Notes under the pieces: model-generated | Database searches by the model: none | Told to the model about the DNA's origin: nothing | Seen by the model: only the letters and a program-made list of their open reading frames with translations | Assembly (NCBI GenBank): GCA_030526995.1 | Contig: JAUNBP010000013.1 | Span: 1 to 36,534 of the forward strand | DNA from: Clostridia bacterium | GTDB taxonomy: Bacteria > Bacillota > Clostridia > Christensenellales > CAG-138 | Direction: 5' to 3' | DNA length: 36,534 nucleotides | Translations under genes and position numbers: made by a program | Shown here: positions 3,818-20,050 of the stretch, one piece after another | How the letters are laid out: each line of letters opens with the position of its first letter | Numbering within the stretch: position 1 is the first letter of the stretch

Positions 3818-4575
3818 CAGCTTATTTCCTCCGAGCAGGTCAGAATTATCGGCTCGCCCTCGGTGATTGCCACCGTGTTCTCATAGTGCGCCGACGGTTT
3901 GCCGTCCTGCGTGGTCACCGTCCATCCGTCCGAAAGCTGCCAGACCTTCCATGTTCCCATGTTAATCATAGGCTCAATCGCAATGGTCATGCCCGCTCTC
4001 AGTCGCTGCCTTGCCCTCGGCGTCTCGTAGTTCGGCACCTCGGGCTCCTCGTGCATCTCTCTTCCGATTCCGTGTCCTACGAGGTCTTTTACCACGCCGT
4101 AGCCATGCTTTTCGGCGTGCCGCTCCACCGCAGCGGATATATCGGAAATACGGTACCCTTCTTTACAGAACTTCAAACCTTCAAAGAAACATTCTCGAGT
4201 GACTTCGACCAGTTTTTTTGTCGCCTCATCGACGTTTCCTACCAAAAAGGTTCTCGCTGCGTCGCCGTGCCAACCGTCAAGAATGGCGCCCACGTCACAG
4301 CTTATTATATCACCGTCCTTGAGCTTTCGGCTGTTCGGTATCCCGTGAACGACCTCGTCGTTTACCGATAAGCATACGCTCTTGGGATAACCGTTATAGC
4401 CTAAAAATGACGGTGTCGCACCCTGCGAGAGGATGTACTCATGCGCCAACTTGTTCAACGCCTCCGTGCTTATTCCGACACGGATGCTTCTTTCAAGCAG
4501 CTTGAGCGTGTTCTCCACTACCCTGCCCGCAGCGTGCATCTTTTCAATCTCAGCCCGAGTTTTAATCGTAATCAT
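3817..4575 (-). CDS. map: Type I methionine aminopeptidase
   Basis: 252 aa. It removes the initiator methionine from nascent proteins when the second residue is small. The pita-bread fold ligands are all visible: H77 (VVHGIP), D94 (CDVG), D105 (GDAART), H168 (GHGIGREMHEEP), E201 (IEPM) and E232 (HYENTV). There is no N-terminal zinc-finger or SH3 extension. Its ATG overlaps the adk stop (ATGA), consistent with coupled translation in the secY-adk-map block. Confidence 0.97.
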   Translation of the reverse strand: MITIKTRAEIEKMHAAGRVVENTLKLLERSIRVGISTEALNKLAHEYILSQGATPSFLGYNGYPKSVCLSVNDEVVHGIPNSRKLKDGDIISCDVGAILDGWHGDAARTFLVGNVDEATKKLVEVTRECFFEGLKFCKEGYRISDISAAVERHAEKHGYGVVKDLVGHGIGREMHEEPEVPNYETPRARQRLRAGMTIAIEPMINMGTWKVWQLSDGWTVTTQDGKPSAHYENTVAITEGEPIILTCSEEIS

Positions 4576-15256: not shown

Positions 15257-15565
15257 TTACAGTTTAATCTCGATATCGACGCCTGCGGGCAGGTCCAACT
15301 TCATGAGTGCATCAACGGTCTTTGCCGAGGGCTGCAGGATGTCAATCAGACGCTTGTGGGTGCGAATCTCGAATTGCTCACGGGCATCCTTATACTTGTG
15401 CGTTGCACGAAGTATGGTTACTATCTCCTTTTCCGTGGGCAGGGGGATGGGGCCGGAAACTTCCGCGCCCGTTCTCTTGGCGGTTTCAACTATCTTTTCG
15501 GCGCTGCTGTCGATTAGATTGCTTTCATACGCTTTGAGCTTGATACGAATCTTTTGGTTTGCCAT
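15257..15565 (-). CDS. rpsJ: 30S ribosomal protein S10 (uS10)
   Basis: 102 aa, first gene of the operon; in E. coli also NusE, a transcription antitermination partner of NusB and Nus[41 protein letters not shown] and [18 protein letters not shown] are family marks. The ATG at 15565 is chosen because it has an AAGGAGAG SD and gives the canonical N-terminus. An in-frame ATG 21 codons upstream lacks an SD and lies within the leader. Confidence 0.97.
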
Positions 15566-15786
15566 ATTATTTCTCTCCTTGTAATTTTTCTTGGGCAGTA
15601 CACAGAGCCGTGTGTTTCCCTTTTTCATTTTTTATACAGCCTCTCGACTGTATCTTTGGGACGGCACGACGCCGCTATTTTTGCCCCACTCGTCTTTTTT
15701 CGAGCGGTTTGGCGGGGACGAATTACCCGAATGGCAATCGGCAACCTCGTTTTCCGCCTGCGCATGGGTGTCCCCACGACGCGAAC
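15566..15786 (-). promoter_or_regulatory. Structured 5' leader of the rpsJ operon
   Basis: From the predicted start (about 15786) to the rpsJ ATG, the minus-strand RNA is about 220 nt. It can fold an 8-bp closing helix (GTGGGGAC at 15777-15770 with GTCCCCGC at 15719-15712, one U-G). Next is a 7-bp hairpin (CCGCTCG / CGAGTGG, 15707-15686) extended by GCC/GGC across an AAA bulge, then CGGC-GTCGT-GCCG. Last is an 8-bp hairpin capped by a GAGA tetraloop (ATACAGTC / GGCTGTAT). No U-rich terminator is evident. Such a leader suggests control by a ribosomal protein; the ligand is not known. Confidence 0.6.
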
Positions 15787-15792
15787 GTTAGA

Positions 15793-15821
15793 ATGATACT
15801 ATATCCGAAAAGAAAATGCAA
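15793..15821 (-). promoter_or_regulatory. Sigma-A promoter of the rpsJ-rplQ operon
   Basis: On the minus strand, TTGCAT (15821-15816), a 17-bp spacer, then TATCAT (15798-15793). The DNA upstream of the -35 box (15822-15855) is very A/T-rich, consistent with an UP element for the alpha C-terminal domain, as expected for a ribosomal-protein promoter. It is divergent from hipB. Confidence 0.75.
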
Positions 15822-15875
15822 GACTTTTTTTGAGAAAATTAAAAATTTTTTTGCCGTGAAAAGGTTGACTTTAAT

Positions 15876-15977
15876 TATACCTTATCGGGTGTAATTTTTG
15901 GCTGTTTTGCATTATTTGCACCTTATAGGGTATAATATTGTCAATGAGTCTTGACTTTAACCCCGAAAGGGTATAAA
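15876..15977 (+). promoter_or_regulatory. Three phased operator-like dyads upstream of hipB
   Basis: Three sites of the form CC-N5-GGGTATAA occur with GGG starting at 15887, 15928 and 15969, exactly 41 bp apart (about four helical turns). As 18-bp dyads they read TATACC-N6-GGTGTA, TGCACC-N6-GGTATA and a weaker AACCCC-N6-GGTATA. The E. coli HipB operator (TATCC-N8-GGATA) is also an 18-bp dyad. Sites 2 and 3 overlap the -10 boxes of the hip promoters, so bound HipB would block polymerase. The sites are seen in sequence; HipB binding is inferred. Confidence 0.65.
15907..15936 (+). promoter_or_regulatory. hipB: Candidate distal hipBST promoter
   Basis: TTGCAT (15907-15912), an 18-bp spacer and a perfect TATAAT (15931-15936). 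The -10 box is part of the second operator-like repeat. Confidence 0.5.
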
Positions 15978-15979
15978 AT
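15951..15979 (+). promoter_or_regulatory. hipB: Main hipBST promoter
   Basis: TTGACT (15951-15956), a 17-bp spacer and TAAAAT (15974-15979), about 25 bp before the hipB ribosome binding site. The spacer contains the third operator-like repeat. Ten bases from the -35 box onward (TTGACTTTAA) also occur at 15865-15874 before the first repeat, so the whole promoter-operator unit seems to have been multiplied. Confidence 0.7.
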
Positions 15980-16009
15980 TTAATCGATGAAGTGATTGGA
16001 GGTATTAGG

Positions 16010-16216
16010 ATGAACAGGATTGCCGAGTTTGTAAAGCAAAAGCGGCGGGCGGCGGGGCTGACGCAGGAGGAATTTGCGCTGCGCAGCGGGCTGGGGCTTC
16101 GCTTTGTCCGAGAGTTGGAGCAGGGCAAGCCCACCGTCCGCATGGACAAGGTGAACGTTGCCCTCGCCATGTTCGGCTGCGAGGCCGTTCCCGGAAGGAT
16201 GGAGGTGAAAAGATGA
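16010..16216 (+). CDS. hipB: HipB-type XRE antitoxin/repressor
   Basis: 68-aa helix-turn-helix protein (MNRIAEFVKQKRRAAGLTQE, then ALRSGLGLRFVRELEQGK) of the small HipB/Y4mF group. It would bind DNA as a dimer and repress its operon. The start at 16010 has GGAGG 7 nt upstream; a GTG 18 nt further up is in frame but would include the SD. It ends with ATGA overlap into hipS. In hipBST systems HipB mainly regulates and adds to complex formation, while HipS neutralises the toxin. Confidence 0.9.
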   Translation: MNRIAEFVKQKRRAAGLTQEEFALRSGLGLRFVRELEQGKPTVRMDKVNVALAMFGCEAVPGRMEVKR

Positions 16217-16542
16217 GTGCTTTTCGCATTGCCTATGTATATGTGAGAAACCTCTTTGCGGGCGAGCTTAGGGAAACCGATGCGGGCTATGAATTTACCT
16301 ATGACGGCGCCTACCTCCGTTTGGAGAGGCCTTCCGCCGTGTCCTTGACCCTGCCGTTACAGCGTGAAAGCTATACATCCAATGTGCTCTTCCCCTTCTT
16401 TGACGGGCTCATTCCCGAGGGCTGGCTGCTGGACGAGGTTTGTCGCAACTGGAAAATCGACTCGAAGGACAGGTTTGGACTCTTGCTTCTCGCCTGCAAG
16501 GATCCCATAGGGAATGTCAGCATTAGGGAGGAACGCTCATGA
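16213..16542 (+). CDS. hipS: HipS: stand-alone HipA N-terminal subdomain
   Basis: 109 aa corresponding only to the N-subdomain-1 of HipA (Couple_hipA family). Conserved parts are LTLPLQRESYTS and FPFFDGLIPEGWLLDEV, ending DPIGNVSIREERS. In full-length HipA this domain is fused to the kinase. Here it is a separate ORF with ATGA overlaps at both ends, the arrangement of tripartite hipBST modules, in which HipS is the antitoxin. It is not a frameshifted hipA: the next ORF has its own zinc-knuckle-like N-terminus and a start codon in an overlapping frame. Confidence 0.88.
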   Translation: MSAFRIAYVYVRNLFAGELRETDAGYEFTYDGAYLRLERPSAVSLTLPLQRESYTSNVLFPFFDGLIPEGWLLDEVCRNWKIDSKDRFGLLLLACKDPIGNVSIREERS

Positions 16543-17489
16543 ACTGTTTATGCTGCGGAAAGCCGCTCGAAGCGGACAATCACGGAAACGGCTGGCATGA
16601 CAGCTGCATACGCCGCTTTTTCGGCACGGCGAAGATGCCCGACTTTGCGCTTGATACCGCTGCCTTTGAGCTTCTTGCAAGGGAGAGTACGAACAGGGGT
16701 TATACCGTTCCCGGCGTGCAAAAAAAGCTGTCACTGCACTTATCACGAGGACGCAATCCGAGGCTTACCCTCGTAAATTACCCTACGGGTTATATTTTGA
16801 AGCCGCAGGTCGAGGAGTATGAGGCTCTTCCCGAAGCCGAACAGCTTGCAATGTGCATGGCGGAAGCCGTTGGAATTTCCGTTGTCCCCCACGCCCTCGT
16901 AAAAAGCGGCGAAAACCTCGCCTACATTACAAATCGAATCGACCGCTCCTTTGAAAGGGACGGCGTGAAATTCTTGGCGATGGAGGATTTTTGCCAACTC
17001 GACCTCCGCCTGACGCAGGACAAGTACAGGGGTTCCTATGAACGCTGCGCAAAGATTGTCGAAAGGTATTCGTGTCAAAAGGGCTTGGATTTGACCGAGC
17101 TGTTTCTGCGCTTGGTGTTCTCCTTTATAATAGGTAATTCCGATATGCACCTTAAAAATCTTTCCTTGGTTGAAACCTCGGAGGGCTCGGCGGAGTACGT
17201 CCTATCTTCGGCATATGATTTGCTCCCCGTCAATGTAATCCTGCCCGAGGATACCGAACAGCTTGCACTCGCCCTGAACGGCAAAAAGACCAACCTCCGT
17301 AAAAAGGATTTTCTCGCATTTGCGAAGGCCTGCGATATCGGGGAAGCCTTAGCACAGAGGATGATTGCAAGGCTCCTTTCCATGGAAAATGAGTTTATCC
17401 GTATGTGTGAGGATTCGCTGTTGCCCCCTCAAATGAAAGCACGGTTTTCGGATTTGATTGAAGAAAGGTGTAGGGTGTTGGAGGGGTAG
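16539..17489 (+). CDS. hipT: HipT: HipA-family serine/threonine kinase toxin
   Basis: 316 aa. HipA-like kinase core: Gly-rich loop TVPGVQKK (56-63), ATP-lysine K88 (YILKP), catalytic NSDMHLKN with D202, H204 and N207, and metal-binding D227 in AYDLLP. The first 30 residues (C3, C6, H20, C23 around CCGKPL and WHDSCIRRFFG) look like a small zinc knuckle. E. coli O127 HipT phosphorylates tryptophanyl-tRNA synthetase; the target here is unknown. The loop has Thr56 where E. coli HipT has the autophosphorylated serine motif (SIS), and Pro58 at the second serine position. The gene converges on rplA and shares a terminator with it. Confidence 0.9.
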   Translation: MNCLCCGKPLEADNHGNGWHDSCIRRFFGTAKMPDFALDTAAFELLARESTNRGYTVPGVQKKLSLHLSRGRNPRLTLVNYPTGYILKPQVEEYEALPEAEQLAMCMAEAVGISVVPHALVKSGENLAYITNRIDRSFERDGVKFLAMEDFCQLDLRLTQDKYRGSYERCAKIVERYSCQKGLDLTELFLRLVFSFIIGNSDMHLKNLSLVETSEGSAEYVLSSAYDLLPVNVILPEDTEQLALALNGKKTNLRKKDFLAFAKACDIGEALAQRMIARLLSMENEFIRMCEDSLLPPQMKARFSDLIEERCRVLEG

Positions 17490-17514
17490 GCGATAGATGT
17501 TTTGGTGCGGCATG

Positions 17515-17548
17515 GGCGGGCGGATGATATCCGCCCCTACAGGGGGAA
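17515..17548. repeat. 34-bp palindromic intergenic repeat, copy 1
   Basis: Core GGGCGGATGATATCCGCCC is an 8-bp inverted repeat around GAT, followed by CCTACAGGGGGA. The same 34 bases occur without mismatch at 36416-36449. A decayed core (GAGCGGATGATATGTGCCC) follows at 17579-17597. It lies in the 162-bp gap after hipT, which otherwise holds only the shared terminator. Confidence 0.85.
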
Positions 17549-17599
17549 TTGGGATGACCACACGAGATATTCGATATTGAGCGGATGATATGTGCCCGC

Positions 17600-17630
17600 A
17601 AAAAAATTCCGCCGAGGGTTTCGGCGGAAT
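17600..17630. terminator. Bidirectional terminator between hipT and rplA
   Basis: A perfect 10-bp stem (ATTCCGCCGA / TCGGCGGAAT) with a GGGTT loop. It is flanked by seven A on the hipT side, giving a U tract for the minus-strand rplK-rplA transcript, and by CGTTTTTA on the other side, giving a weaker U tract for hipT. Confidence 0.88.
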
Positions 17631-17651
17631 CGTTTTTACTTTGTGTTTTCT

Positions 17652-20023: not shown

Positions 20024-20050
20024 TTTTTCAAACCTCCTACGGTATAAACA

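Follow-up and report, generated by a model that had tools for sequence, protein, structure and literature searches.

We identify a regular array of three palindromic sites in the region directly upstream of the hipBST toxin-antitoxin operon, and conclude, with a probability of about 0.86, that this region is the operator array through which HipB regulates its own operon. The DNA itself shows the sites, their spacing, their conservation in relatives, the hipBST gene set and the one promoter that is conserved. Throughout, the window refers to the whole stretch of 36,534 nucleotides that was analysed.

The operator unit is a 20-bp near-palindrome with the consensus TTATACCC-N4-GGGTATAA. It is found three times on the forward strand: at O1, the putative distal auxiliary operator (TTATACCTTATCGGGTGTAA, 15875..15894), at O2, the putative middle auxiliary operator (TTGCACCTTATAGGGTATAA, 15916..15935, 41 bp past O1), and at O3, the proximal operator (TTAACCCCGAAAGGGTATAA, 15957..15976, 41 bp past O2), which lies inside the promoter spacer. 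The three sites are in direct orientation and equally spaced (41 + 41 bp), leaving gaps of 21 bp between them, and 7, 7 and 6 of their 10 symmetric pairs match in O1, O2 and O3, respectively. An earlier note on this DNA had recognised the right half of the unit as CC-N5-GGGTRTAA with GGG starting at 15887, 15928 and 15969; both the motif, which matches at 15880, 15921 and 15962, and the 41 + 41 bp spacing of the GGG starts are as it described.

These are the only three exact matches to CC-N5-GGGTRTAA in the window, compared to 0.11 expected, and three matches were reached in none of 100 shuffles. Using a matrix built from 188 sites of relatives, with the window excluded, scores of at least 4 are found across the 36,534 bases only at O1 (28.2), O2 (25.1) and O3 (20.5). 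A looser and less specific search, allowing 3 mismatches to the palindrome, adds two window positions, 4983 and 20028. Across the genome, which is 80% complete, there are 10 matches to the short exact pattern compared to 7 for a backward control, and the palindrome with 2 mismatches matches at six places (O1 to O3 and three single places, one of them at window position 20028) compared to 7 for the control. The three single places were considered as other targets in the same genome and rejected, as they do not rise above control patterns. O1 to O3 are not a chance occurrence, and since the short patterns alone match the genome about as often as controls, it is the spaced cluster, rather than the short pattern, that stands out. 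No known RNA element is found in the window at the gathering threshold, and models of defence systems give only weak matches (best E 8.8e-5).

Downstream of the array, the operon is an intact hipB-hipS-hipT gene set on the forward strand. The hipB gene (16010..16216, ATG start with GGAGG upstream) encodes a 68-residue HTH protein, the presumed repressor; hipS (16213..16542) encodes a protein resembling the N-terminal domain of HipA, and hipT (16539..17489) a HipA_C kinase. The genes are tightly packed, with 4-nt overlaps at 16213-16216 and 16539-16542, and the Pfam families in operon order are HTH_3 (PF01381), Couple_hipA (PF13657, 1e-24) and HipA_C (PF07804, 8.8e-42). HipB scores 70.9 bits against TIGR03070, slightly under the cut-off of 71.65, and its sole match among solved chains is Legionella HipB (E 1.1e-4). 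HipS corresponds to N-subdomain 1 of HipA (PF13657; TIGR03071, 2.9e-27), and HipT is a HipA_C kinase without this subdomain, giving no Couple_hipA match. The best solved-chain match of HipT is 8ezr_B, named HipT(Lp) (E 2.6e-39), and 7ab3-7ab5, which we take to be E. coli HipBST, likewise rank ahead of the HipA chains. In characterised hipBST systems, HipS is the antitoxin and HipT the toxin, a kinase of TrpS that HipS neutralises.

The kinase motif N-x-D-x-H-x-K-N (NSDMHLKN) is intact in all 82 HipT proteins compared, including that of the window. The S-psi-S motif before the Gly-rich loop is absent from the window HipT, which has TVPGVQKK. According to the available text of PMC10627512, S-psi-S is common but not universal in HipT and Legionella HipT falls in an S-psi-Q group, so that S-psi-S is not a defining feature of HipT. 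TVPGVQKK is itself present in 66 of the 82 proteins, with Thr and Pro at the positions of the two phosphorylated serines of E. coli HipT, forming a T-psi-P group. The same genome also holds a second HipA-like stretch (L011, G000:C72:50398-50772), 32% identical over 130 residues.

To describe the array in relatives, we took the best 80 of 580 confirmed relatives from a search with HipT (by record title mostly Clostridia, with two Treponema), which together with the window and a congener locus (L010) make 82 loci. A HipB start is present in 75 of them (all but L052, L055, L058, L061, L067, L079 and L080). Removal of duplicates (L068, L083) and of loci with less than 200 nt upstream (L012, L027, L047) left 70 loci, the window and 69 others. 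The matrix for these 70 loci was trained on the same sequences, window included, and spacing played no part in the training. Score thresholds were 11 for the 70 loci and the promoter counts, 9 for held-out HipB loci and 6 for plasmid loci.

In the 600 nt preceding hipB, three sites are present in 54 of the 70 loci and two in the other 16. Neighbouring sites 40-42 bp apart are found in 67/70 loci and the full regular triple in 53/70. The remaining 17 loci comprise 13 with two sites 40-42 bp apart, 3 with no recognisable middle site and 1 with a 64-bp gap. Among 124 adjacent intervals, 120 measure 40-42 bp (33 at 40, 64 at 41 and 23 at 42); the other four are 64, 80, 81 and 82 bp, the last three being two steps across a weak or absent middle site. 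In the 53 triples, the distal-to-middle interval is always 40 or 41 bp, and the middle-to-proximal interval is 41 or 42 bp in 52. Thus the spacing of exactly 41 bp in the earlier note is near-constant in relatives, at 40-42 bp rather than strictly 41. The sites are also highly specific in position: at scores of at least 11 there are 192 matches within 260 nt upstream of hipB compared to 4 in the rest of the loci's 445,579 bases, and two of those 4 are a displaced array in L060. In 20 sets of 75 shuffled upstream regions, scores of at least 9 occur 0.2 times per set. One relative, L081, carries two extra operator-like sites 40 bp apart directly 3' of hipT (3958-4017), followed by a 115-aa ORF and then an 804-aa ORF on the opposite strand.

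The array is also found in held-out loci, none of which matches the training set at 95% or more. A close HipB (E <= 1e-10) is present in 8 of 381 genomes of the class, own genome included, and all 7 others have three sites upstream, with intervals of 41/41, 41/51, 41/40, 40/41, 40/41, 40/40 and 40/41. Intervals of 40-41 bp make up 13 of the 14, the other being 51; as two of these loci share upstream DNA, the count is 11/12 when they are taken once. The sole irregular locus (L140, in G444) has O2 and O3 51 bp apart, that is 41 bp plus about one helical turn, and offers a natural phasing test. Searching with a two-site pattern whose spacing was left free from 26 to 56 bp, we found matches in 3 of 398 genomes of the phylum and 5 of 381 of the class, G224 being in both. 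This strict pattern is specific rather than sensitive, since it catches 4 of the 8 genomes with a close HipB and misses the window's own. HipB-like matches occur in 26 genomes of the phylum sample, and 24 of these (all but G000 and G224) are weak, with E 3.9e-5 or worse.

A search of plasmids with HipB gave 35 records, of which 17 were analysed (10 Bacteroidota and 7 Proteobacterial). At least one interval of 40-41 bp is present in all 10 Bacteroidota loci and a triple in 5 (score of at least 6, without a shuffled control), and all 15 intervals measure 40-41 bp, with two sites scoring just 6.9 and 10.1. Six of the first 8 Bacteroidota records have a HipT match, one of them split; of the last two, one has annotated HipS- and HipT-type genes and the other does not. 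Promoters of Bacteroidota carry a TAnnTTTG box, and the proximal site overlaps such a box in 4 of the 10 loci, counted by eye. Spacing therefore seems to be kept in Bacteroidota although the promoter appears to sit elsewhere. The earlier note had made its reading depend on the repeats accompanying hipBST in orthologous loci, and on this point it survives well, with 40-42 bp pairs in nearly all of the 70 loci, triple arrays in 7/7 held-out loci and, at the lower threshold, 40-41 bp intervals in 10/10 Bacteroidota loci.

The 7 Proteobacterial records (Sphingobium, Sphingomonas, Sphingopyxis, Devosia, Novosphingobium, Tistrella and Acidovorax; 5 of them with an annotated hipA-type gene) likewise have a regular array of palindromes or repeats ahead of hipB, but mostly with a TTTCCCG-N2-CGGGAAA-like motif and a spacing of 48-50 bp. 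Arrays with this spacing and a TTTCCCG-type motif are those of L153, L154, L158 and L160-L162. The array of L159 is weak because it has another motif and lies partly inside the annotated hipB reading frame. Carriage by a phage or virus was considered and rejected: no relative was found in the viral_contigs set (5 pattern matches, 0 confirmed), and phages gave 2 weak matches at 24-25%.

We next consider where transcription is likely to start. A predicted hipBST promoter on the forward strand consists of a -35 element TTGACT (15951..15956), abutting O3, and a -10 element TAAAAT (15974..15979) after a 17-nt spacer, overlapping the last 3 bp of O3. It scores 10/12 and is the sole sigma-70-type match in 15560-16020, although such a scan alone proves nothing, since shuffles of the same region give a mean of 1.0 match. 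An alternative, TTGACT-15-TATAAA, scores equally at O3. In the 53 regular triples, a TTGACA-like hexamer (at least 5/6) usually starts 6 bases ahead of the proximal operator (45/53), and the commonest start of the -10 hexamer (at least 5/6) is 17 bases into it (33/53), as in the window; the proximal operator therefore fills the 17-nt spacer. The earlier note had placed the half-sites on -10 boxes. What remains of this is an overlap limited to 3 bases at the start of the -10 element, the bulk of the operator lying between the two elements.

The earlier note had further read the region as a triplicated promoter-operator, each site having its own active promoter. The operator half-site GGGTATAA(T) does resemble a -10 box, and -35-like and -10-like hexamers at O1 (TTGACT-19-TGTAAT) and O2 (TTTGCA-19-TATAAT) reach 10/12, but only with a 19-nt spacer, and the promoter scan of the window yields the O3 promoter alone. 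Among the 53 triples, promoters of at least 9/12 with a spacer of 16-18 nt are found at 49 proximal sites compared to 14 middle and 15 distal ones, and TTGAC stands immediately upstream of the operator at 40 proximal, 0 middle and 3 distal sites. A triplicated promoter is thus unsupported, because the conserved promoter is restricted to the site adjoining hipB, and we regard this reading as unlikely; O1 and O2 look like auxiliary operators. An even smaller chance is left to shared ancestry or a recent tandem duplication that would have set a spacing without function, the most improbable of the explanations weighed here. The direct orientation and equal spacing of the copies in the window would fit such an origin. 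Between loci, however, operators of the 53 triples are 73-79% identical, while the 10-nt stretches between operators are 30-38% identical, barely above the 29-34% expected from composition (61% for the stretch bearing the -35), and the length nevertheless stays at 40-42 bp. With the sequence between operators nearly saturated and its length undrifted, the spacing itself appears to be kept under selection. Its persistence in Bacteroidota, with the different promoter box overlapping some proximal sites, also argues against mere descent.

Could the sites serve some other regulator whose palindrome is similar, such as a metal sensor of the CsoR type, and stand beside hipB by coincidence? Hip loci are not the only places with this motif, since G153 has two similar sites 34 bp apart at a distance of about 50 bp from where a CsoR-type gene (PF02583) ends. 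Nevertheless, the triple precedes hipB in every held-out HipB locus, and HipB is directly downstream in 4 of the 5 class genomes matching the two-site pattern. Pairs away from hip genes have other spacings, namely 34 bp in G153 and 27 bp in G590 (the fifth matching class genome, with no close HipB), or are a 42-bp tandem repeat, as in the phylum match of G197. We therefore consider a foreign regulator very unlikely. Equally slim is the chance that O1 gives HipB control of the divergent rpsJ (S10) operon as well, an influence that the earlier note had suggested. A predicted rpsJ promoter lies on the reverse strand at 15793..15821 (-35 TTGCAT 15821-15816, 17-nt spacer, -10 TATCAT 15798-15793), and 53 bp separate O1 from the upstream end of its -35. 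This promoter is outside the array, and O1 lies outside both its -35/-10 elements and the conserved A-tract. The predicted promoter is conserved in two congeners, G001 and G002, both without an adjoining hipBST, the similarity stopping at the A-tract. In G002, rplA is directly followed by rpsJ, which represents the uninterrupted site; in G001, another gene stands between rplA and rpsJ and hipBST is on a separate contig. The flanks examined in the 81 other loci, which extend to about 3 kb at most, contain no S10 or L1 gene, so that the position of hipBST beside rpsJ seems to be a chance insertion in this lineage, and the suggested influence on rpsJ finds no backing. In the window, hipBST is flanked by rplA and rpsJ, to which it runs in the opposite direction (15566-17651), as if it had been inserted into a cluster of ribosomal-protein genes.

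Returning to autoregulation by HipB, the arrangement suggests the following mechanism. HipB, as a small and presumably dimeric HTH protein, would bind the three TTATACCC-N4-GGGTATAA palindromes, whose centres are 41 bp apart. A single predicted sigma-A-type promoter would start the operon, and since O3 fills its 17-bp spacer, HipB on O3 would exclude RNA polymerase. O1 and O2 would act as auxiliary operators, raising the local concentration of repressor and stabilising the complex at O3, with HipBST complexes probably lined up next to one another at intervals close to four helical turns. Loss or titration of HipB would empty the array and allow the operon to be re-expressed. We infer HipB binding, cooperativity on one face of the DNA and repression from the layout of the sites. 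Several observations speak against parts of this scheme. Of the three window sites, O3, the promoter-borne operator, is the weakest, having the lowest matrix score and the fewest symmetric pairs. The 17 loci of the 70 that lack a regular triple also count against it, as does the intermediate occupancy that the Legionella authors allow for their HipB (see below). Alignment on the same face is just approximate, because 41 bp corresponds to 3.9 turns at 10.5 bp per turn, and the 48-50 bp of the Proteobacterial plasmids does not amount to an integral number of turns. The mean vector length of helical phase is about 0.90 at 10.2-10.5 bp per turn, but this does not separate phase from length, since a high value follows from the narrow spacing and the outliers (51 and 64 bp) are too few.

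A more tentative idea, which we hold to be possible but rather doubtful, is that each Hip family has an operator spacing that is a structural constant, set by contact between adjacent toxin-antitoxin complexes on the DNA. Under this doubtful reading, the constants would be about 41 bp for the hipBST type of Bacillota, Spirochaetota and Bacteroidota and 48-50 bp for Proteobacterial plasmid hipB. The O2-O3 gap of 51 bp in the irregular held-out locus, longer by about one turn, fits the phase requirement that touching complexes would impose. If true, the array would be a scaffold for a higher-order nucleoprotein holding the kinase inactive while repressing, and the spacing would read out its geometry.

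Operator arrays are known from other hip systems. E. coli K-12 hipBA likewise has tandem palindromic operators for HipB ahead of hipB, but with four sites TATCC-N8-GGATA (4 exact matches) spaced 28, 39 and 28 bp and an unsplit HipA. The sites of the window read ACC/CCC-N6-GGT and do not conform to this E. coli type. HipB dimerises on palindromes, as described in the available text of PMC8262856. The closest parallel is Legionella hipBST, for which the available text of PMC10653801 describes a tripartite arrangement of three evenly spaced operators (O1-O3) upstream of hipB, the one nearest hipB overlapping the predicted promoter. HipB shifts this DNA, each operator being bound in EMSA, and the authors consider that their gel shifts allow intermediate occupancy, unlike the cooperative E. 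coli HipB. The Legionella sites differ from those of the window in being 18-bp sites with 6-nt repeats and 53-bp gaps, compared to 20-bp sites and 21-bp gaps here (PMC10653801). Their motif is described there as unlike hipBA operators.

E. coli O127 hipBST has the same genes in the same order, and its HipB represses its own promoter (available text of PMC10627512 and PMC6581861); operator sites are not described in those parts of the two papers. HipB alone represses at high level, and a low level suffices when hipT is co-expressed (PMC10627512, same text). The Legionella authors call their operators the first identified for a hipBST system (PMC10653801, as far as its available text goes), and none of the literature matches listed reports an operator array for hipBST from Clostridia or Bacteroidota.

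Operators had thus been described for one hipBST lineage, Legionella, and the array of the window represents a second operator class, defined by its motif, by its position relative to the promoter and by a near-invariant spacing of 41 bp, and present in loci of three phyla. With such a constant spacing, the cooperativity and phase-dependence of HipB become simply testable by changing the distance between sites. The signature, a triple of TTATACCC-N4-GGGTATAA at about 41 bp, may also help to locate hipBST in unannotated genomes.
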